A stretch of 64,000 nucleotides of DNA. Origin: Thomasclavelia ramosa DSM 1402 (GTDB lineage: Bacteria > Bacillota_I > Bacilli_A > Erysipelotrichales > Coprobacillaceae). This document shows, piece after piece, positions 18,718 to 58,615 of this stretch. The stretch lies in the NCBI RefSeq assembly GCF_014131695.1, contig NZ_CP036346.1:620001-684000 (forward strand), in the 5' to 3' direction. The position numbers were made by a program, and so were the translations under genes. Numbering within the stretch: the stretch's first letter is position 1; the number at the start of each line of letters is the position of its first letter. Under the pieces are notes generated by a model. It was given only the letters and a program-made list of their open reading frames with translations, did no database searches and was not told the DNA's origin.

Positions 18718-20499
<1,782 letters not shown>

Positions 20500-47215: not shown

Positions 47216-47230
47216 TTTGAAAGGGTGAAA

Positions 47231-47899
47231 ATGATGGAGCAAGAATTAACAAAATTCTTAACTTTTTGGGATCATTTAAATGAAAACGAAAAAGAGTTAT
47301 TAAAACAAAATGCCACTCTTCAAACTTATGCTAAAGGCATAACAATGCATCGTGGTAGTGATGATTGTTTAGGTGTGGTTTTAGTGAGAAAGGGTCAATT
47401 GCGGACATATATGTTATCACCAGATGGACGTGATATTACACTATATCGTTTATTTGCAGGTGATGTATGTATTCTTTCGGCATCATGTGTTTTAGAAACG
47501 ATTACATTTGATGTTTTTATTGATATTGAAGAAAATAGTGAAATCATTACAATCACGGCAACTTTATTTCAACAATTGGCGAAGCAAAATATTTATGTTG
47601 AAACATTTGGGTATAAAATGGCAACCAATCGTTTTTCTGATGTTATGTGGGCGATGCAGCAAATTTTATTTATGTCTGTTGATAAACGCTTAGCTATTTT
47701 TCTTAAGGAAGAAGCTGAAAAGAATAATTCTTTAGAGTTAAAAATTACTCATGAACAAATCGCTAAATATATGGCGACGGCTCGTGAAGTTGTAACTAGG
47801 ATGTTAAAATATTTTAGTCAAGAGGGTATTGTAAAAATATCACGAGGAAAAATAACAATAGTTGATAAACATAAATTAGATAAACTAACTATTGATTAA
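47231..47899 (+). CDS. Crp/Fnr-family transcription regulator
   Basis: 222 residues from the ATG at 47231 (AAGG six bases upstream). Cyclic-nucleotide-binding-like beta-roll (about 20-125: GVVLVRKGQLRTYMLSPDGR, ITLYRLFAGDVCIL) and C-terminal winged HTH (KITHEQIAKYMATAREVVTRMLKYF). There is no Fnr-type N-terminal cysteine cluster, though CILSASC has two Cys. Anaerobe-type regulators of this group respond to redox or metabolites. Ten or so bases after the HAD gene, probably co-transcribed. Confidence 0.92.
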   Translation: MMEQELTKFLTFWDHLNENEKELLKQNATLQTYAKGITMHRGSDDCLGVVLVRKGQLRTYMLSPDGRDITLYRLFAGDVCILSASCVLETITFDVFIDIEENSEIITITATLFQQLAKQNIYVETFGYKMATNRFSDVMWAMQQILFMSVDKRLAIFLKEEAEKNNSLELKITHEQIAKYMATAREVVTRMLKYFSQEGIVKISRGKITIVDKHKLDKLTID

Positions 47900-47931: not shown

Positions 47932-47950
47932 ATTCAAGTTAATTAATTTT

Positions 47951-47980
47951 TTTTCAAGTGATTATGAGTTGAAATTCAAG
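47951..47980 (+). promoter_or_regulatory. Operator candidate upstream of GH1 gene
   Basis: A 30-base block beginning TTTTCAAGTGATT and ending GTTGAAATTCAAG. The same block, differing at 3 of 30 bases, lies at 50545-50574 upstream of the PL8 gene. It contains direct TTCAAG copies and the palindrome TTGAAATTCAA. The LacI-type regulator encoded between the two is the obvious candidate to bind it. Confidence 0.7.
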
Positions 47981-48073
47981 CTGACATTAAAGATAATAAA
48001 TCTATATCAGTAATAGTAATTTGTTATATAAAAAATAGCTATACTGCTAGAAATAGAATGGGAGGAAGAAGTA

Positions 48074-49417
48074 ATGTTACGAAAAGATTTTTTATGGGGT
48101 GGGGCAGTTACAGCTCATCAAAGTGAAGGTGGATATACACTGGATGGTAAAGTACCAGCGGTTTGTGATTTAACAGTTACCGGTGAATATTCTGATTTTA
48201 AAGACGGAATCGATAGTTACCATCGTTATGAAGAGGATTTTGATTTATTTCAGGAAATGGGATTTAATGCTTATCGTTTTTCACTTGATTGGTCACGTTT
48301 AATGAGCGATGAAGGAGTATATAATGAAAAAGGATTTGTGTTTTATGAACATTTTATTGATGCACTGCTTAAAAGAGGAATTCAACCAATTCCAACTTTA
48401 TATCATTTTGAAATGCCAGCATTTTTATATGAGAAGTATAATGGATTTTATAGTCGCAAAGTAGTCGATATATTTGTAGAACTGTGCAAAAAGATTGTTG
48501 ATCGTTATCATGATAAAGTTGAAAATTGGATTATTTTTAATGAACAAAATGGAATTTTACAGAAAGGGCCAAAAATGTTTTTTGGGGCAGTTTGTCCGGA
48601 TGGAGTTGATACTCAAACGTTTGATAATCAAATTATGCATAATACTTTGATTGCTCATAGTCTTATTAATGAATATATTCATCAAAAAGGTGGTAAGGTT
48701 ATGGGAATGGCGACAGTGGTTCAAAGTTATCCAGAAACTTGTCATCCTCTTGATACACTTGAAAGTATGAAGGCTCAAAGTGAAGCTTATGTTTTTTTAG
48801 ATGTTTTTGCAAGAGGACATTATAATTCATATTATTTTGCAAATATGAAAAATGAAGGAACAATGCCTGAAATCTTAGATGGTGATTTAGAAATATTAAA
48901 GAAAGGGATTACGGATTCACTATCTATTAGTTATTATATGTCGACAATTTCACATTATGGTGAGGAGAGTCTAACAAATATTAATGATGTTGTAATTAAA
49001 AAGAATCCTTATTTGGAAATGTCAGAATTTGGCTGGACGATTGATCCAACTGGTCTTAGAATTACTTTAAGACAATTGTATGATCGTTATGAAATGCCAA
49101 TATATATAGTGGAAAATGGTTTTGGTTATAATGATCAAATAAATGCAGATGGCCAAATTATCGATGATTATCGTATTGATTATATGAGGAAACATCTTGA
49201 GGAAATGAAATTAGCGATTCAAGAAGGCGTTGATTGCCGTGGTTACTTGTCATGGGGACCGGTTGACATTTTAAGCAGCCGGGCACAAATGAAGAAAAGA
49301 TATGGTTTTATTTACGTCAATCGTGAAAATGATGATTTAAAAGATATGCGTAGAATTAGAAAAAAATCATTTGCCTGGTATCAACAAGTAATTGCATCAA
49401 ATGGAGAAGTACTATAA
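48074..49417 (+). CDS. Glycoside hydrolase family 1 enzyme
   Basis: 447 residues, cytoplasmic (no signal peptide). GH1 N-terminal signature FLWGGAVTAHQSEGGY; FSLDWSRLM; acid/base region NWIIFNEQN (Glu in NEQ, usually NEP); nucleophile in YIVENGFG; RGYLSWGPVDILS near the end. It should cleave beta-glycosides or 6-phospho-beta-glycosides; the loop usually holding the phosphate-binding SK-Y signature is not clearly present (MKKRYGFIYV), so an unphosphorylated substrate is possible. Shares an operator and presumably induction with the secreted lyase; 42 bases before the LacI gene. Confidence 0.93.
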   Translation: MLRKDFLWGGAVTAHQSEGGYTLDGKVPAVCDLTVTGEYSDFKDGIDSYHRYEEDFDLFQEMGFNAYRFSLDWSRLMSDEGVYNEKGFVFYEHFIDALLKRGIQPIPTLYHFEMPAFLYEKYNGFYSRKVVDIFVELCKKIVDRYHDKVENWIIFNEQNGILQKGPKMFFGAVCPDGVDTQTFDNQIMHNTLIAHSLINEYIHQKGGKVMGMATVVQSYPETCHPLDTLESMKAQSEAYVFLDVFARGHYNSYYFANMKNEGTMPEILDGDLEILKKGITDSLSISYYMSTISHYGEESLTNINDVVIKKNPYLEMSEFGWTIDPTGLRITLRQLYDRYEMPIYIVENGFGYNDQINADGQIIDDYRIDYMRKHLEEMKLAIQEGVDCRGYLSWGPVDILSSRAQMKKRYGFIYVNRENDDLKDMRRIRKKSFAWYQQVIASNGEVL

Positions 49418-49459
49418 TCGAGGAGCATGTGCTATACTATTTAATGAGGTGAAACAAAG

Positions 49460-50482
49460 ATGAAAGTGACGATGAAAGATATTGCTAATAAATTAGGAAT
49501 TTCAATTAATGCCGTTTCAATTGCACTAAATGATAAACCTGGTGTCAGCGATGAAATGCGTTTAGAAATTTTAAAAATGGCTGATAAAATGGGTTACATT
49601 AATCAAAAAAGACAATATCTATCAGTTTATTCTAAATCAAATATTTGTATTTTAATGCAAAGTTATTATGCAGATACAGGACACTTTTATTCGATTGTTT
49701 TACGGTCAATCGTTGAACAAGCAAAAGTATTTGGTTATTTTTCAATTTTAAATTATTTTGAAGAAGGGCACTTCGTAGTACCTGAATGTATTGAAGAAAG
49801 GAAAGTGGCTGGAATATTAGTTGTAGGCAAAATATCTGATAGTAACCTGCTGCTGCTTAAAAATATTGGTGTACCCGTTGTTCTAGTAGATTTTACATCA
49901 TTATGTACACCGTGTGATTGTGTTTTGACGCATAATAAACAAGGTAGTTATATGATGACTACGCATGTTATTAATAAAGGGTATCAACGGATTGGTTTTT
50001 TTGGAGATCTTGATTATTCCTTTAGTTTTGAGGATCGTTTTATTGGATTTAAACAGTCACTGTTAAAGAATAATATTGTTAGTTATTCAAAGGTTGATGA
50101 ATATATTCAAAAATATTCTTTTCTACAAGGAATTGAAGAATATGTTTTAACTAATCAAATTGATAAAATAATTGAAATTTTGAATACTAAAAAATTACCA
50201 GAGGTCTTAGTATGTGCAAATGATTCTAATGCATTTGCTGTGATTACTGCGTTAAAAGATATGGGCTTAAAAGTCCCCAAGGATATTAGTGTCGTTGGAT
50301 TTGACGATACACCGTTGTGTGTTAAATCAGTACCGCAGATCACAACAGTTCAAGTTCAAAAGGAACTGATGGGCGAGGTGGCGGTATCTAATCTAATTGA
50401 TCGGATTCATCGTAAAGATAATATTCCGATGACACAATTATTAAGTGTGAAAATAGTTGAACGAACGTCTTTAAAAATTTAA
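49460..50482 (+). CDS. LacI-family transcription regulator
   Basis: 340 residues. N-terminal HTH VTMKDIANKLGISINAVSIALNDKPGVS with hinge helix; periplasmic-binding-protein-like sugar domain (GILVVGKIS, VLVDFTSLCTPCDCV, CANDSNAFAVITALKDMG, SVVGFDDTPLC). GAGGTG precedes the ATG. It lies between GH1 and the PL8 gene, and the repeated 30-base block flanks its operon on one side and precedes the lyase on the other, which suggests it controls both. Confidence 0.95.
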   Translation: MKVTMKDIANKLGISINAVSIALNDKPGVSDEMRLEILKMADKMGYINQKRQYLSVYSKSNICILMQSYYADTGHFYSIVLRSIVEQAKVFGYFSILNYFEEGHFVVPECIEERKVAGILVVGKISDSNLLLLKNIGVPVVLVDFTSLCTPCDCVLTHNKQGSYMMTTHVINKGYQRIGFFGDLDYSFSFEDRFIGFKQSLLKNNIVSYSKVDEYIQKYSFLQGIEEYVLTNQIDKIIEILNTKKLPEVLVCANDSNAFAVITALKDMGLKVPKDISVVGFDDTPLCVKSVPQITTVQVQKELMGEVAVSNLIDRIHRKDNIPMTQLLSVKIVERTSLKI

Positions 50483-50491
50483 AGACGTTTT
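50465..50491 (+). terminator. Rho-independent terminator
   Basis: ACGTCTTTAAA and TTTAAAGACGT with loop AA, followed by TTT; the stem contains the end of the LacI gene. Confidence 0.85.
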
Positions 50492-50544
50492 CATCATTTA
50501 TAATTCAACCATATTCTACTGATTATAAAGGTTTATAAAAAACT

Positions 50545-50574
50545 TTTTCAAGTGATTTTTCGTTGAAATTCAAG
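50545..50574 (+). promoter_or_regulatory. Operator candidate upstream of the PL8 gene
   Basis: Second copy of the 30-base block (TTTTCAAGTGATT ... GTTGAAATTCAAG), 27 of 30 bases identical to 47951-47980, followed by a further GTGAT so that TTCAAGTGAT occurs twice 20 bases apart. It is 65 bases before the lyase start. Confidence 0.7.
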
Positions 50575-50639
50575 TGATAATAACTAAAAATAATAGATGT
50601 AGTAAGCGTTTTCAATATTATTTAAAAGGAGGATATTAT

Positions 50640-53600
50640 ATGATTAAAAAGGCATTGAGAATAATCCTGTCATTAGTTATGTCTTTTGGGCTTGTTTTAA
50701 GTTCCATGAATGTAACTTATGCAAGTGAGAGTGATTTTGCAACAATCAAAACGCGTTTAAAAGATTACTTTTTAACTTTAGACACGATTGATGATGGGTC
50801 AAAAGTAGAAACATGCTATGTTTCAAAAGCAAAAGATTATCTTGATTTGATTCAAGAAGATGGTGCTTTTGGGGATGTTGACTACAAAGCGACATCAAGT
50901 GCTGCTAATGGAACAGCATGGTCACCTTATTTAGCTCTTGATCGTCTACAAGCAATTACAGTTGCTTATCATAAAGAGGGAAACGCTCTTTATCATGACG
51001 AAGAAGTAATTAATAAGCTAAATAAAGCAATTGTTTATTGGGGAAAAATGAATCCATCTTCTTCTAACTGGTGGGAGAATCAAATTGGAGTTCAATTAAG
51101 ATTTTCTAGAATTGCTTTATTTATGGAAAGCATTGTAAGTAAAGATGCAATGGATATTATGCTTAATAAATTATTGGAAAAAACACCAGTTAAATATGGT
51201 ACAGGTCAAAATAATTTATGGTTTGATCAAAATTATGTTTATTACGCAATTATTACAGAAAATGGGACTAAACATACCAATTCTACAGGATTTAAGAAAT
51301 TAGATTTAAAAGAACTTGTAGATGATTATTTAAGTTATTGCTTAGTTGTTCAAACTGATGATAATACTGCTGAAGCAGTTCAGGTTGATAACAGTTTCTA
51401 TATGCATGGTAGGCAGTTCTATTCTAATGGATATGGAATGTCAATGTTTAGAGATATGAGTTTTTGGATTTATATGCTAAGAGAAACTAGTTATGCATTT
51501 GAACAAGATGTCATTGATTTAATGGCTGATTATATGATTGATGGGACAAGCTGGACAATCAGAGGAGATATTATGGAGCTTTACCTTGGATATCGGCCAT
51601 ATGATTATGATGTTGGCTATGATAACTATGCAGCAGAGTATATCGATCCACTTAAGAGAATGATTGAATCAGATCCTGATCGAGCTGATGAATATCAAGC
51701 AATCCTTGATAACATCCAAGGAAAAAATACAGTTAATGGAAAAAATGGTAATTATTATATGTGGCGTTCTGGTTATGCTTCTCACATGCGAGATGGGTAC
51801 GGAGTTAATATTAAAATGGACTCTAACCAAATCATCGGTGGTGAATGGCGTGGCAGCTGGTCAGGTTATGATAAAGACGGAGGACAATTAATTTATTGGA
51901 CATCATCAGCAGCTTCAACAATCACAGTTGACGGAGATGAATATACTAACGTTTATCCAACATATGATTGGGCTCATTGTCCAGGAACAACAACAGCAGC
52001 ACGAATCGTTCAAGATTATGCTAATGCAGGTCGTTTTACAAATGGAACTGAACATACAATTGGGGTATCCAATGGTAAATATGGAAATACTGCTTATGAT
52101 ATGAATAAAAAGGGGACTCAAGTAAAGAAAGGATATTTCTTCTTTGATGATGAATTTGTTGCTCTAGGTTCGGGGATCAATTCTACTGAGGGAGTCAATA
52201 TCCATACAACATTAAATCAATGCGAAGCTGAAGATGTAAATGTTGGTGGTCAAAGTGTGGCTGAGGGAACGAAAGAACAAATTTATAACACTAATTGGCT
52301 ATATAATGGAAAAGTTGGATATGTTTTCTTAGAAAATACGGATGTAGTTGTAAGTAATAGTGTTCAAACTAATAATCCGTCATTATGGGATGAAGCAAAA
52401 AAGAATGAAACTCCGGCTACTTTTACAGCCTATTTAGATCATGGATTAAAGCCAAGCAATGATAGCTATGCCTATATTGTCGTACCAAATACCACAGCAG
52501 GTGCAGTTAGTCAATATGCCGGTAATACACCAGTTACTGTAATTGCTAATAACGAAAAAGTTCAAGCGGTAAGACATGACGGTTTAAAACAAACTCAAAT
52601 TAATTTCTATCAAGCTGGTTCATTGGAATATAAAGATGGCTATATAATTACTGTTGATCAACCTTGCAGTATTATTATTGATGAATCAGAGGATACAAGA
52701 AAAATCTCTGTAGCAGTCAATGATACAGCAGCCAATCAAACTGTAAATGTAAATTTAAATTATGATAATCAAGAAACACAAACAACATTTGTTTCAGGAG
52801 CATTACCATATGCTGGACAAACAATGACGTTATCAGAAGGCTCAGATAATCGTTATCATACTAATTCTTCAATGATTGGACACGAAGTCGAAAAAGCTTT
52901 TGATGGTGATGAAAATACATATTGGCAAAGTGAAGAAACGCAAAATGAATGGATCAGTATGTTTACTGGCAATAATAAACATTTAGCATCTATGAATATT
53001 CTTTGGGGTGATAATTATGCTAGTGCTTATGATGTTATGGTTTCTCAAGATGGTAAAAATTATGAATTATTGAAATCTGTAAGTAATGGTGATGGTAAGA
53101 CAGACACGATTGAATTAAAAGGAGTCTACCCATATATTAAGATTATCATGAAAGATGGAAATGGAAATTGTTTTGAAATTAAGGAAATTACATTTAAAGC
53201 AAGTGATTCAATAGCGCTTAATAAATCTGTTGAAGCAAGCAGTACGTCAACAAATGACCCTGGAAATACTAAAGAATTAGTTGTAGATGGTAATACAAGT
53301 ACAAGATGGAGTTCATTACGAAATGAAGATGAGAACTGGATCATGGTTGATTTGGGACAATATTCAGAAATTAATGCTATGAGCATTCAATGGGAATCCG
53401 CTTGTTCTGATGATTATGATATTCAGGTCTCTAGTGACAAAAATAACTGGATAACGGTTAAAAATAGTATGGCAACTGGAAGTAGCTTATTGGATGAATA
53501 CAATTTTGATGAACCTGTATATGGGCGTTATGTTAGAGTTTCGTCACATAAATCAAGAACTTTAAAATATGGTATTAGTATTTATGAAATTTCTGTGTAT

Positions 53601-56153
53601 GGTTCTTATAAAGATGAGGATATTGCAGCTAATAAAAATGCATTTTCAAGTACAATAAAGGATTTGAACTTACCGACTCATGCAATTGATAATAAAGCCA
53701 ATACGTCTTGGATTTCGAGTGCAGCCGGTGATCAATGGATCTATGTAGAATTAAAAGGAATTTATAAAATTTCAAGTATGCAGGTTGATTGGGGAAATAA
53801 TTATGCACCTAATTATGAAATTCAGATTTCTGATGATGCACAAATGTGGCAAACAGTAAAAACTATAATTGATGGACAAGGTGGTAATGAGAACATTTCA
53901 GATTTAGGTAATCAAGAAGCACGATATGTTAGATTAAAATTAAATGGTTCTAGTGGCTCATCATACCAAATCATCCAGTGGTCAGTTTATGGCGAACTTG
54001 TTGAAGCAGAAAATTTAGAGAATATTGCTTTAAATAAAACAGCAACAGCTTCTTCAGTTTATAACAATGTTTATACTGCAAATAGAGCTATTGATGGAAG
54101 TTTTGAAAATAATGGTGGAAATGATCAATCAAGATGGGTTTCAAATAGAAATTCGAATGATGAATATATTCAAATAGATTTAGAAGCGAATTATGATTTA
54201 ACGGGTGTAAAACTTTATTGGGAAGGAAATGGTGCTAAAAAATATCAAATTCTTGTCTCTGAAGATGGAAAAACATGGCAAAAGGTTTATCTAGAAGAGA
54301 ATGGACAACCTGGAATTGCAAATATCCCATTTAATGAAACTGTTACTGCTCGGTATGTTAAAATGCTAGGTATAGAATGTGCTTCTAAATACGGATATTC
54401 ATTATGGGAATTTGAAGTGTATGGAAAATTACACCAAGAACCAGTGGTGCCTGAAGTAAATATTGCATTGAATAAAACCTCTAAGGCAAGTAGCGAGTTT
54501 ACTGACCCTAATGATGGTAATAAAACATATCAATCTTTATTAGCGTTTGATGGCAAAGGTACAAATGAAACAGTTGATGGAAAGCAATCACGCTGGGTAT
54601 CTTTAAGAACAAAAGATGATCCAACAGCAACATCACAATGGATCTATGTTGACTTAGAAGCTGATTACGATATTTCTAAAGTTGTTCTTAACTGGGAAGG
54701 AAATGGTGCTAAAGAATATAAAGTGCAAATTTCTAATGATGGTCAGAATTGGACAGATATATCACATATTACAGATGGTAAAGGTGGTATTGATGAACTG
54801 ACATATAAAAATACAACAGGCAGATACGTAAGAATGTTAGGAATCGAGCCTGGAGGAATTTATGGATATTCATTATGGGAATTTGAAGTTTACGGGGAAG
54901 CTGTATTAGAACCTGAAAATCCAAATGTAAATTTAGCTTTGAATAAATCTTCGAATGCGAGCTCAGAATATGTTGATTCGAAAGATGGAAATAAAACATA
55001 TGAATCTTCGCTAGCGTTTGATGGTAAAGGTACAAATGAAATAGTTGATGGAAAGCAATCACGCTGGGTATCTAATCGGAAATCTAATGATGAGTGGATA
55101 TATGTAGACTTACAAGATATTTATAATATTTCTAAAGTTATTTTGAATTGGGAAGGAAGCGGTGCAAAGAAATACAAAGTGCAAGTTTCTAATGATGGTC
55201 AAGTTTGGACAGATATATCAGATATTAATGATGGCGATGGAGGTCTTGATGAATTATCATATAAAGATGTAACAGGACGATATGTAAGGATGTTAGGGAT
55301 TGAAGTTGGAAGTGATTATGGGTATTCACTATGGGAATTTGAAGTTTATGGAACAACTTTAAAATCTAAGTTACAGGAAATTTATAAGAAATATAAAGAT
55401 TTAGATATTTCATCATACACCCCTAATAGTATTGCGCGATATCAAGAAGCATTAAATAATGCTGTTAAAGTTTATAACGATGATGATGTTACATCTGAAG
55501 ATATCTTAAAAGCAATTGATCAGTTGGAAGATAGTGTTAAAGGACTTACTAAGATTGTTGATAAAATGGAGTTGGAAGAAACAATCAATTCAGCAAGTAA
55601 ACAATTAGATACAGCTAAATATACCCCTCAATCAATTGAATTACTTACAGTCACTTTACAAAAAGCTAAAGAAGTTTTCAATGATGATAATGCTACGAAA
55701 CATGAAGTTGATGAAGCAATTAATAAATTAAATGAAGTAGTCGCAGCATTAGTTGAAAAAGCTGATAAAAATAATTTAATATCAATTTTTAATACTGCAT
55801 TGAAACTTGATAAAGAAAAATATACTTCTGAAAGTCTTACTAAAGTTGAAGCCTTGTTAGAGAAGGTAGAATCAATTATTGATGATGAAAATGCTGCACA
55901 GGCAGAAGTCGATGAGATGTATGACCAATTGCATCAAGCGTTAGATCAATTAGTGATAAAAGAAGATGTAAATACAAACGATAAAGTTGAAGGTGATGTA
56001 ACAGTTATTCCTACGCCAGAAAAAGAGATACCAAAAGATGATAGTACTTCAGCAGCTAAAACTGGTGATTCAGTATCTATTCAAATATTGGCGGGAACAT
56101 TATTGATCAGCATCTTAGGAATTGGAATTTTAAGAAAAAAGAAACAATCATAA
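50640..56153 (+). CDS. Secreted multidomain polysaccharide lyase family 8 protein with F5/8C and FIVAR repeats
   Basis: 1837 residues from the ATG at 50640, behind AAAGGAGGATATTAT. Signal peptide about 1-30 (LILSLVMSFGLVLSS-like core, cleavage near YASES). Residues about 40-700 are a PL8 hyaluronate/chondroitin-lyase-type module: SNWWENQIGVQLR, DNSFYMHGRQFYSNGYG (His/Tyr catalytic region), RGDIMELYLGY, HCPGTTTA. Then six F5/8-type C (discoidin) modules (about 730-855, 857-993, 995-1120, 1129-1264, 1274-1420, 1430-1572), three FIVAR-like helical repeats (about 1574-1775), and an end KTGD-hydrophobic-RKKKQS, a noncanonical sortase-type anchor. It should degrade glycosaminoglycan-like acidic polymers at the cell surface. 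Confidence 0.93.
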   Translation: MIKKALRIILSLVMSFGLVLSSMNVTYASESDFATIKTRLKDYFLTLDTIDDGSKVETCYVSKAKDYLDLIQEDGAFGDVDYKATSSAANGTAWSPYLALDRLQAITVAYHKEGNALYHDEEVINKLNKAIVYWGKMNPSSSNWWENQIGVQLRFSRIALFMESIVSKDAMDIMLNKLLEKTPVKYGTGQNNLWFDQNYVYYAIITENGTKHTNSTGFKKLDLKELVDDYLSYCLVVQTDDNTAEAVQVDNSFYMHGRQFYSNGYGMSMFRDMSFWIYMLRETSYAFEQDVIDLMADYMIDGTSWTIRGDIMELYLGYRPYDYDVGYDNYAAEYIDPLKRMIESDPDRADEYQAILDNIQGKNTVNGKNGNYYMWRSGYASHMRDGYGVNIKMDSNQIIGGEWRGSWSGYDKDGGQLIYWTSSAASTITVDGDEYTNVYPTYDWAHCPGTTTAARIVQDYANAGRFTNGTEHTIGVSNGKYGNTAYDMNKKGTQVKKGYFFFDDEFVALGSGINSTEGVNIHTTLNQCEAEDVNVGGQSVAEGTKEQIYNTNWLYNGKVGYVFLENTDVVVSNSVQTNNPSLWDEAKKNETPATFTAYLDHGLKPSNDSYAYIVVPNTTAGAVSQYAGNTPVTVIANNEKVQAVRHDGLKQTQINFYQAGSLEYKDGYIITVDQPCSIIIDESEDTRKISVAVNDTAANQTVNVNLNYDNQETQTTFVSGALPYAGQTMTLSEGSDNRYHTNSSMIGHEVEKAFDGDENTYWQSEETQNEWISMFTGNNKHLASMNILWGDNYASAYDVMVSQDGKNYELLKSVSNGDGKTDTIELKGVYPYIKIIMKDGNGNCFEIKEITFKASDSIALNKSVEASSTSTNDPGNTKELVVDGNTSTRWSSLRNEDENWIMVDLGQYSEINAMSIQWESACSDDYDIQVSSDKNNWITVKNSMATGSSLLDEYNFDEPVYGRYVRVSSHKSRTLKYGISIYEISVYGSYKDEDIAANKNAFSSTIKDLNLPTHAIDNKANTSWISSAAGDQWIYVELKGIYKISSMQVDWGNNYAPNYEIQISDDAQMWQTVKTIIDGQGGNENISDLGNQEARYVRLKLNGSSGSSYQIIQWSVYGELVEAENLENIALNKTATASSVYNNVYTANRAIDGSFENNGGNDQSRWVSNRNSNDEYIQIDLEANYDLTGVKLYWEGNGAKKYQILVSEDGKTWQKVYLEENGQPGIANIPFNETVTARYVKMLGIECASKYGYSLWEFEVYGKLHQEPVVPEVNIALNKTSKASSEFTDPNDGNKTYQSLLAFDGKGTNETVDGKQSRWVSLRTKDDPTATSQWIYVDLEADYDISKVVLNWEGNGAKEYKVQISNDGQNWTDISHITDGKGGIDELTYKNTTGRYVRMLGIEPGGIYGYSLWEFEVYGEAVLEPENPNVNLALNKSSNASSEYVDSKDGNKTYESSLAFDGKGTNEIVDGKQSRWVSNRKSNDEWIYVDLQDIYNISKVILNWEGSGAKKYKVQVSNDGQVWTDISDINDGDGGLDELSYKDVTGRYVRMLGIEVGSDYGYSLWEFEVYGTTLKSKLQEIYKKYKDLDISSYTPNSIARYQEALNNAVKVYNDDDVTSEDILKAIDQLEDSVKGLTKIVDKMELEETINSASKQLDTAKYTPQSIELLTVTLQKAKEVFNDDNATKHEVDEAINKLNEVVAALVEKADKNNLISIFNTALKLDKEKYTSESLTKVEALLEKVESIIDDENAAQAEVDEMYDQLHQALDQLVIKEDVNTNDKVEGDVTVIPTPEKEIPKDDSTSAAKTGDSVSIQILAGTLLISILGIGILRKKKQS
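54460..55355 (+). repeat. Recent tandem duplication of an F5/8C module
   Basis: The fifth and sixth discoidin modules are far more alike than the others. DNA runs such as ACAAATGAAA/ACAAATGAAA-TAGTTGATGG and GGAAAGCAATCACGCTGGG are shared nearly base for base (about 54541-54600 and 55015-55074), indicating duplication or gene conversion. Confidence 0.8.
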
Positions 56154-56188: not shown

Positions 56189-58615
56189 TTATATAAATAG
56201 TGACATATCAGATTCTTCACCGTTAGCTAACATAGTAGCAACTCCCGATAATGTAACACCATCAATCAATTCTTCTTGTTTAATGCCCATTACATCCATA
56301 CTCATCGAACAGGCAATTAGTTCAACACCATTATCTTGAGCTAGTTTGATTAAATCTTCTAAACTGTCAATATTTTTATCTTTCATAATAGTACGGATCA
56401 TTTTAGCTCCCATACCACCCATATTCATTTTTGAAAGCGATAGTTTTTTTGAACCACGAGGCATCATCATTGCAAACATTTTTGAAATAAAATTTTTTTT
56501 GATTTTAACCTTTTCTGGTCGTCGAATGATATTTAGTCCCCAGAAGGTAAAGAACATTGTGACTTTTCGTCCCATAGCCGCTGCGCCATTAGCAATAATA
56601 AATGATGCAATTGCTTTATCTAAATCTCCAGAGAAAACAATCATATTTTTATTATTTTTATTTCCGTTTGAGATACTGTTCTGTCCTTTCTTTATTTTAG
56701 CACTGCTAATTCCTTTATTACAGCTAAGTTCTATTAGTTCATTACCAGTACGACGACAATAGCCATCTAGATCTGTAGCAAAAGCCGGGTCCGTAGTTTG
56801 AATTTCAATAATATCGCCATCTTTAGCAGTTTCTAGTGATGCTGATAATTTTACAATCGGACCTGGACACTGAAGACCGCAGGCATTAATTTTAATTGTT
56901 TCTGGATTTTCTATGGGACAAGCAGGATGCATTGTCTTGATTTTGGGTTCATCATGTTCTTGATTAAAAATTGTATTATATAAGCGATATCCTCCATTGA
57001 GATTATAAGTATCAAAACCATTTTGACTTAAAATCCGTGATGCTATATAGCCTCTAAGTCCAATCTGGCAGGTTACATAAATAGGTTTATTTAAATTAAG
57101 CTCATGAAGACGAGTTCGCAAGGAATCCAATGGAATATTAATGTAACCATCGATGTGACCATTTGCATATTCTAATTCAGTACGAGTATCTAATAGAATC
57201 ACACTGCCATCACGGGGCAGTGATGCAACATCATCCCAATTATATTGTTTGATCTTGTCAGTAAGAATATTTTCAATTACAAAACCAGCCATGTTAACAG
57301 GATCCTTTGCTGATCCATATGGTGGAGCATAGCAAAGTTCTAATTCAGTTAAATCAAAACCCGTCATTTTGGCACGAATAGCAGCTGCTAAAACATCCAT
57401 GCGCTTGTCAACCCCATCATAACCAACTATCTGAGCCCCTAAAATGGTTCCCGTTGATTTATCAAAAAGGACTTTTATTGACATATTGACCGCACCTGGA
57501 TAATAGCCGGCATGATTAGCTGAATATGTGTAGACTTTATCGTAATTGAGATTTAATTCCCTAGCAGTTTTTTCATTGATTCCGCTACTTGCAACAGTTA
57601 AGTCAAAGACTTTTAAAATTGATGAACCTTGTGTTCCTTGATAATGGCGATCAAAACCGCAAATATTATCAGCTGCAATTCGTCCTTGTTTATTAGCTGG
57701 GCCTGCTAGGGGTACATAACTTGCTTTATTAGTAACAAAATTTTTGATTTCAATAGCATCGCCTACAGCATATATATCTTTGATTGATGTTTCCATCTTA
57801 TCGTTGACGATGATTGCTCCGCGAGAATTAGTTGCAATTTCTGTATTTTTTACAATCTTAGTTTCAGGTACCACACCAATTGCCATAATTACCATATCTG
57901 TATCTACAGTTTGATTATTTAGAGTAACTGTCAGCTTGTTATCGGCTTCATTAATAGCTTGAAGTTCTGTTTCTAAAACTAAGTTAATTCCTTTGCTTAT
58001 AAGATGTTGATGAACTTCACAAGCCATCTCATAGTCAATCGGAGAAATGACTTGATTAGCCATTTCTACAATCGTTACATTTATTCCAGTTGAATGTAAA
58101 TTTTCTGCCATTTCAATACCAATAAATCCCCCACCTACAACAATTGCATGTTTTGGTTTATGGGTATCAACGTATTCTTTTATTGCATAAGTATCAGGGA
58201 TATTTCTAAGTGTAAAAACTTTATTTGAATTGATTCCAGGAATATTTGGCTTGATTGGTTTTGCTCCCATTGAAAGAAGTAATTTATCATAACTTTCCTG
58301 ATATTCTTTTTGTAATTGATGATTATATACAGTAACGGTTTTAGTTTCAGGAGTAATAGCAGTAACTTCGTTAAAGTTGCGAACATCGACATTAAAGCGT
58401 GCTTTAAAACTGTCAGGAGTTTGTAAGGTTAAAGCCTCTTGATCAGTGATTTCACCACCAATATAATAGGGTAAACCACAGTTAGCAAATGATATATATT
58501 CATCTTTTTCAAACATAATAATGTTGGCAGATTCATCTAAACGTCTTAGACGAGCAGCAGCTGAAGCGCCACCAGCGACTCCGCCTACGATAAGAATTTT
58601 TTGATTAGTATTCAT
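56189..58615 (-). CDS. CoA-disulfide reductase-like flavoprotein fused to rhodanese, TusA and DsrE domains
   Basis: 808 residues, cytoplasmic. Residues 1-450: FAD/NAD pyridine nucleotide-disulfide reductase with ILIVGGVAGGASAAARLRR and redox Cys46 in SFANCGLPYYIGG, as in CoA-disulfide/NADH persulfide reductases. About 462-550: rhodanese with active Cys in VTCQIGLRG. About 570-640: TusA-like INACGLQCPGPIVKL. About 655-808: DsrE/F-like (MIVFSGDLDKAIASFI, IACSMSMDVMGI). The chain holds four sulfur-carrier or persulfide sites, so it likely reduces or relays persulfides. A GTAACTAGGTCAC site lies 73 bases upstream. AGGAAAAAA precedes the ATG. Confidence 0.95.
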   Translation of the reverse strand: MNTNQKILIVGGVAGGASAAARLRRLDESANIIMFEKDEYISFANCGLPYYIGGEITDQEALTLQTPDSFKARFNVDVRNFNEVTAITPETKTVTVYNHQLQKEYQESYDKLLLSMGAKPIKPNIPGINSNKVFTLRNIPDTYAIKEYVDTHKPKHAIVVGGGFIGIEMAENLHSTGINVTIVEMANQVISPIDYEMACEVHQHLISKGINLVLETELQAINEADNKLTVTLNNQTVDTDMVIMAIGVVPETKIVKNTEIATNSRGAIIVNDKMETSIKDIYAVGDAIEIKNFVTNKASYVPLAGPANKQGRIAADNICGFDRHYQGTQGSSILKVFDLTVASSGINEKTARELNLNYDKVYTYSANHAGYYPGAVNMSIKVLFDKSTGTILGAQIVGYDGVDKRMDVLAAAIRAKMTGFDLTELELCYAPPYGSAKDPVNMAGFVIENILTDKIKQYNWDDVASLPRDGSVILLDTRTELEYANGHIDGYINIPLDSLRTRLHELNLNKPIYVTCQIGLRGYIASRILSQNGFDTYNLNGGYRLYNTIFNQEHDEPKIKTMHPACPIENPETIKINACGLQCPGPIVKLSASLETAKDGDIIEIQTTDPAFATDLDGYCRRTGNELIELSCNKGISSAKIKKGQNSISNGNKNNKNMIVFSGDLDKAIASFIIANGAAAMGRKVTMFFTFWGLNIIRRPEKVKIKKNFISKMFAMMMPRGSKKLSLSKMNMGGMGAKMIRTIMKDKNIDSLEDLIKLAQDNGVELIACSMSMDVMGIKQEELIDGVTLSGVATMLANGEESDMSLFI

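Follow-up and report, generated by a model that had tools for sequence, protein, structure and literature searches.

Hyaluronan loci of Firmicutes combine a PL8 lyase with a GH88 enzyme and a PTS. As for regulation, a survey of 1303 LacI-family regulators, in which only palindromes were searched for, found operators that were palindromic, mostly even and with a central CG (PMC4052901). The known exception is CytR of Enterobacteria, another member of the LacI family, which accepts inverted or direct repeats of its half-site with relaxed spacing; the direct repeats described for it are separated by 1 bp, have a weak consensus and act together with CRP (PMC3454398). In its title, the study of Jorgensen et al. 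1998 (cited in PMC5263246) credits a flexible interdomain linker for the relaxed spacing of CytR.

The locus compared here with these systems lies in a 64,000-nucleotide stretch of the Thomasclavelia ramosa DSM 1402 genome (contig NZ_CP036346.1, positions 620,001 to 684,000), referred to below as the window. A reading made from the sequence alone had described a GH1 gene, a secreted PL8 lyase and a LacI regulator gene between them, and Pfam searches gave the same picture (Table 1). The LacI protein matched PF00356 (LacI HTH; 34.6 bits, cut-off 27) and PF13377 (Peripla_BP_3; 103.5 bits, cut-off 26.5). Lyase_8_N, Lyase_8 and Lyase_8_C each exceeded the cut-off in the PL8 protein, which also has six F5/8-type C domains and FIVAR repeats (Pfam) and a C-terminal membrane segment, as read from its C-terminus. 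Its translation probably starts at ATG 50640, which is preceded by AAAGGAGG, rather than at GTG 50574.

Table 1. Coordinates of the genes, promoter elements and repeats of the locus, numbered within the window.
Feature	Position	Strand	Remarks
Half-site H0 TTCAAGTTA, GH1 promoter	47933..47941	+	Third copy, 20 bp 5' of H1; read from sequence
Half-site H1 TTCAAGTGA, GH1 promoter	47953..47961	+	
-35 hexamer TTGAAA, GH1 promoter	47969..47974	+	Its TTGAA is also the inverted arm of H1
Half-site H2 TTCAAGCTG, GH1 promoter	47975..47983	+	22 bp after H1, within the -35/-10 spacer
-10 hexamer GATAAT, GH1 promoter	47992..47997	+	17-bp spacer; 10/12 promoter matches
GH1 gene	48074..49417	+	Pfam Glyco_hydro_1 (PF00232), 361.9 bits; 6-phospho-beta-glycosidase type
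LacI-family repressor gene	49460..50482	+	About 42 bp 3' of GH1; Pfam and alignment
Half-site H1 TTCAAGTGA, PL8 promoter	50547..50555	+	
-35 hexamer TTGAAA and inverted arm, PL8 promoter	50563..50568	+	
Half-site H2 TTCAAGTGA, PL8 promoter	50569..50577	+	22 bp after H1
Weak -10 hexamer AAAAAT, PL8 promoter	50586..50591	+	17-bp spacer
cre-like site TAGTAAGCGTTTTCAA, PL8 leader	50600..50615	+	12/13 consensus positions; CcpA-type role inferred
PL8-family lyase gene, secreted product	50640..56153	+	Lyase_8_N, Lyase_8, Lyase_8_C, F5_F8_type_C, FIVAR

Several other features of the window were noted. A gene for a Crp/Fnr-family regulator (47225-47899, plus strand) lies directly 5' of the GH1 promoter and is outside the conserved cluster in other genomes. 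An inverted sequence, ACGTCTTTAAA...TTTAAAGACGT, flanks the LacI stop codon (about 50463-50493) and is a possible transcription end; the terminator scan did not report it. On the minus strand, positions 56189-58615 encode an 808-aa CoA-disulfide-reductase-like flavoprotein fused to rhodanese, TusA and DsrE2 domains, and with the nearby chromate-transporter-like gene, LysR regulator and SulP transporter this looks like a sulfur-handling cluster. Overlapping long open frames on both strands and in several frames (578, 560, 399 and 350 aa) at 18763-20499 suggest repetitive or low-complexity coding sequence.

Two blocks, at 47950-47980 and 50544-50574, share 90% identity across 31 nt. When the GH1-side and PL8-side intergenic stretches (174 and 157 bp) were compared, the best 30-mer match had 27 of 30 identical bases, as against a maximum of 23 of 30 (mean 19.6) for 500 dinucleotide-shuffled pairs. 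The earlier statement that the blocks agree at 27 of 30 positions within unrelated surroundings was thereby borne out. Scanning the complete genome (3,247,604 bp) with up to three mismatches returned exactly these two blocks, and the reversed control returned none. A looser form of the repeat with two mismatches gave 51 matches versus 54 for the reversed control, as expected by chance, and a third exact repeat match, at 3,192,544, falls within a coding sequence and was likewise put down to chance. The exact 30-base block had no match in the GTDB contigs, from which the records of this genome may be absent; the relatives carry a looser form.

At both genes TTCAAGTRA is repeated directly with a period of 22 bp (two helical turns) around a sigma-70-type promoter, and the element is not a classical LacI palindrome. 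The 30-base operator proposed in the sequence-only reading was therefore right in that both blocks are real, but the unit is the 22-bp-period direct repeat around the -35, and the third copy on the GH1 side had been overlooked. To define the conserved positions, 26 GH1 and PL8 promoters were aligned; besides those of the window, they came from three Clostridium species and ten further Coprobacillaceae genomes. The conserved unit, TTCAAGT, recurs at positions 0 and 22, where its first six bases (TTCAAG) are nearly invariant; TTG at 16-18 is invariant (26/26), as are the hallmark -10 bases A40 and T44. H1 is located just 5' of the -35 TTGNNA and H2 in the 17-bp spacer between -35 and -10. A third half-site copy is present 20-21 bp further 5' in many GH1 promoters, that of the window included.

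Together with the -35, H1 makes up a partial inverted repeat of 21 bp, TTCAA-N11-TTGAA. In Coprobacillaceae and Clostridium its inverted arm is kept only as TTG, whereas the direct copy at +22 is kept over 7-9 bases. The conservation of this TTG in Coprobacillaceae needs no second arm, since the -35 alone suffices to explain it. The aligned element is without a central CG. A separate CG-centred palindrome, GTAAGCGNTTNCA, is found in the PL8 leader and has no counterpart before GH1.

The recognition helix of the LacI protein reads SINAVS. LacI relatives of 42% identity in Thermoanaerobacter and Thermoanaerobacterium have the same helix (S[IV]NAVS), and the upstream region there contains TTCAAGTAA-N12-TTCAAGTAA, a 21-bp period, together with an inverted CTTGA at the -35. 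It precedes a different operon, composed of an ABC transporter, a glycosidase with a GH42-type domain and GH130. Within 3-4 kb, the repeat was detected for 17 of 19 S[IV]NAVS LacI genes versus 0 of 58 with other helices, the counts being phylogenetically non-independent. The exceptions were L098, where the nearby repeat has a mismatch, and L100, where there is none. A paralogous LacI (36% identity, same helix) at L017 10272-16402 is divergent from a second PL8-like gene, and the two have their own TTCAAGTAA pair between them, with a 21-bp period. Caldicellulosiruptor-like LacI genes encoding an SKNAVS or SKVTVS helix served as a contrast and showed no repeat upstream. A CG-centred TGNNANCGNTNNCA palindrome was absent upstream of the LacI genes in both the S[IV]NAVS and the other-helix groups. 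In a literature search for TTCAAGTAA together with LacI, the ten matches listed were all unrelated.

Judged by these comparisons, the repeat tracks the LacI recognition helix rather than the enzymes: operon and class change, and the element stays. Because of this persistence, LacI is the simplest candidate for the repeat-binding protein. Additional inverted half-sites (TTACTTGAA) were observed 5' of the main repeat in the Thermoanaerobacterales loci L094-L099 and L195-L213; these are possibly auxiliary operators.

Fourteen genomes, the three Clostridium species among them, keep the repeat before GH1, PL8 or both. Ten of the related genomes searched have a LacI orthologue of 67-79% identity, and exactly the same set has GH1 at 81-88% identity. 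Among 60 genomes, exact paired repeats were confined to those with the LacI orthologue. A gapped pattern gave 35 exact matches in 18 genomes (reversed control, 7), and by manual count 30 of the 35 stand before GH1, PL8, PL8-like genes or the LacI operon. The repeat is also present at a PL8 paralogue on another contig of one genome of the family. In an Erysipelatoclostridium sp. An173-type genome, where GH1 is on another contig, the LacI and GH1 promoters retain only H1 and the TTG.

Clostridium yunnanense, C. zeae and C. folliculivorans (L082, L083 and L084) have the arrangement GH1-LacI-PL8, in which the repeat precedes each of the two enzyme genes, and their LacI proteins show about 80% identity. 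In the LacI tree, these three sequences group with that of the window inside Coprobacillaceae (support 87/93). This placement indicates that the cluster came to be common to Clostridium and Coprobacillaceae by transfer between classes. Two Massilimicrobiota genomes have GH1-LacI and no PL8, so GH1-LacI can exist without the lyase. When the LacI DNA-binding domain was searched for in 395 genomes of the class, no additional clade outside the family appeared.

The GH1 protein is, by sequence, of the 6-phospho-beta-glycosidase type. Its nearest solved structures are 6-phospho-beta-glucosidases, and 6WGD and BglA (2XHY) match over the whole length. Alignment with 6WGD placed FNEQ, VENG and SRAQMKKRYG in register, with both catalytic Glu residues and the S...K.Y phosphate-binding loop kept. 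The MKKRY loop is conserved in the orthologues, N replacing the first K in some. The protein scores under the NCBIfam cut-offs for the named 6-phospho-beta-glucosidase subfamilies. Unlike 6WGD and BglA, the GH1 of the window is tied to a PL8 lyase, and no PTS gene is adjacent or shares the operator.

For the PL8 protein, chondroitinase AC was the best solved match (1CB8/1HM2; E about 6e-60), covering the full catalytic domain, and equivalents of Asn175, His225, Tyr234 and Glu371 are conserved in all the PL8 proteins. Nevertheless, the two are distant in sequence: the chondroitinase AC model NF043001 gave 261 bits against a cut-off of 1000, and the Asn374 position is variable. In the GH1-LacI group, YLGYRPY stands in place of the R-x-x-x-R motif (GRxISR-type) that all PL8 proteins from GH88-bearing genomes keep. 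Relative to ...GR288GVSR292 of chondroitinase AC, Arg292 is not conserved, and an equivalent of Arg288 would at best be displaced by one position.

GH1 had been called an unusual partner for PL8, and the genome comparison extends this. No match to GH88 (PF07470) and no GH88/GH105-type gene was found in the genome of the window or in any of the 11 GH1-LacI genomes. Among the genomes searched, 15 have PL8, that of the window included; GH88 is absent in 9/9 of those with GH1-LacI and present in 6/6 of those without (Fisher p = 0.0002, kinship uncorrected), so that GH88 and GH1-LacI never occur together among these relatives. The expectation that further sites would precede a PTS or ABC transporter and GH88 failed in the GH1-LacI genomes searched, where there were none. 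As in the PL8-GH88-PTS hyaluronan loci, a secreted PL8 is combined with local regulation; in contrast to them, the genome is without GH88, the locus is without a PTS, and GH1 is present instead.

What the DNA shows directly is that the repeats exist, sit within the promoters, are conserved and occur together with the LacI helix. From this we infer that LacI is the binding protein, and we consider it highly likely that it represses, rather than activates, the GH1 and PL8 promoters via the TTCAAGTRA direct repeats, with the -35 as a partial inverted third arm. LacI would contact half-sites two helical turns apart, one 5' of the -35 and one within the -35/-10 spacer. Once bound, the repressor would lie across the promoter, and the half-site in the spacer would block RNA polymerase. 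Release is predicted to require a small sugar, perhaps a 6-phospho-glycoside cleaved by GH1. LacI, with no site of its own here, would be autoregulated via the GH1 transcript, and the cre-like site may place PL8 under CcpA-type catabolite repression as well. The proposal that GH1, LacI and PL8 form one regulon, made in the sequence-only reading, is well supported as a locally regulated unit by the presence of the repeat in 14 genomes and its association with the LacI helix.

CytR is the nearest known system, and the LacI of the window may be likened to a CytR-type flexible regulator with strong, widely spaced half-sites. Both are LacI-family proteins; CytR can use half-sites in direct orientation, and here candidate half-sites in that orientation are seen in the sequence with a 20-22-bp period. 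The hinge of the window's LacI, YINQKRQYLS, is also atypical: it deviates from the canonical YxPNxxARxL and in the alignment is one residue shorter than that of PurR. An AlphaFold model predicts a helix at residues 51-58 in the hinge with pLDDT <50, and it was left out of the structural argument. The systems differ in that the window has spacers of 12-13 bp, strong half-sites and no apparent CRP-like partner site; the protein itself is not a CytR orthologue (88.5 bits with the CytR model, cut-off 436). With LacI, PurR and CcpA it shares the protein family, an operator overlapping the promoter and a regulator adjoining its targets (PMC4052901).

The usual operator form stands against a LacI repressor: operators of the family are normally palindromes, mostly even, with a central CG (PMC4052901), as for LacI, PurR and CcpA, whereas this element consists of direct repeats without one. 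The likeness of the two blocks could itself be due to chance or recent duplication in an AT-rich genome with many T-runs. We regard this as negligibly probable, as the shuffled pairs peak at 23/30, the flanks are unrelated and the layout is kept in 26 promoters from two classes; the flanks and the layout together rule out duplication as the source. Direct repeats with a period of about 21-22 bp are typical of LytTR- and AraC-type activators. Such a regulator could bind the repeats, as their period would fit, and LacI could act elsewhere, for example at the CG-centred palindrome GTAAGCGNTTNCA available before PL8. This we consider improbable: no regulator besides LacI travels with the cluster, the repeat accompanies the LacI helix even where the operon and the class are others, the placing of one half-site between -35 and -10 suits a repressor, and GH1 has no counterpart of the palindrome. 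A reading with the same regulator and another contact geometry, and as such a variant of the preferred explanation, assumes that an ordinary LacI dimer sits on an odd pseudo-palindrome of 21 bp, TTCAAGTAA-N7-TTGAA, as the true operator, the direct copies being auxiliary or partly remnants. The inverted spacing is an equal 21 bp in both lineages and the palindrome is nearly perfect in Thermoanaerobacterium (TTCAAGTAAAAATTGCTTGAA); odd palindromes make up about 4% of LacI-family operators (PMC4052901), and the An173-type promoters with H1 and TTG alone would also fit. The reduction of the inverted arm to the -35 TTG in Coprobacillaceae and Clostridium, next to the longer conservation of the +22 copy, argues against it, and we hold it to be a real possibility that falls short of probable. 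A palindromic component is favoured by the Thermoanaerobacterium sites and the direct copies by the Coprobacillaceae sites.

As to the substrate, the genes could serve ordinary degradation of glycosaminoglycans (hyaluronan or chondroitin), if GH88 and a transporter were encoded at another place or had non-homologous substitutes. The PL8 fold, the conserved catalytic Asn, His, Tyr and Glu, the match to chondroitinase AC, the F5/8-type carbohydrate-binding domains and the FIVAR repeats are in keeping with such a pathway. Nevertheless, it appears unlikely in view of the missing GH88/GH105-type genes and of YLGYRPY in place of the motif of GH88-associated PL8 proteins. Moreover, the non-reducing sugar on which a 6-phospho-glycosidase acts is phosphorylated at position 6; an unsaturated uronate does not fit this, and the enzyme would not be expected to act on a disaccharide with a non-reducing unsaturated uronate. 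The assignment to an acidic or mucosal polysaccharide such as a glycosaminoglycan finds no support in the GH1 type and the PL8 subfamily. Because GH88 is absent, the Arg motif of PL8 is replaced and GH1 appears to be of the 6-phospho type, a glycosaminoglycan substrate is not supported.

We suggest, tentatively and with some doubt, that an S[IV]NAVS subgroup of LacI proteins with an atypical hinge may read direct repeats straddling the -35, and that a gut Firmicute PL8 pathway without GH88 may use a GH1 of the 6-phospho-glycosidase type after the lyase on an acidic glycan. A survey limited to palindromes, such as that of the 1303 regulators (PMC4052901), would have missed a direct-repeat subgroup. 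If binding is confirmed, three half-sites, a known helix and two lineages would make this a compact natural system for a LacI dimer on direct repeats. The mutual exclusion of GH88 and GH1-LacI-PL8 suggests that PL8 does not reliably indicate the use of glycosaminoglycans by gut Firmicutes, since one PL8 subfamily has an altered Arg motif and another enzyme as its partner.
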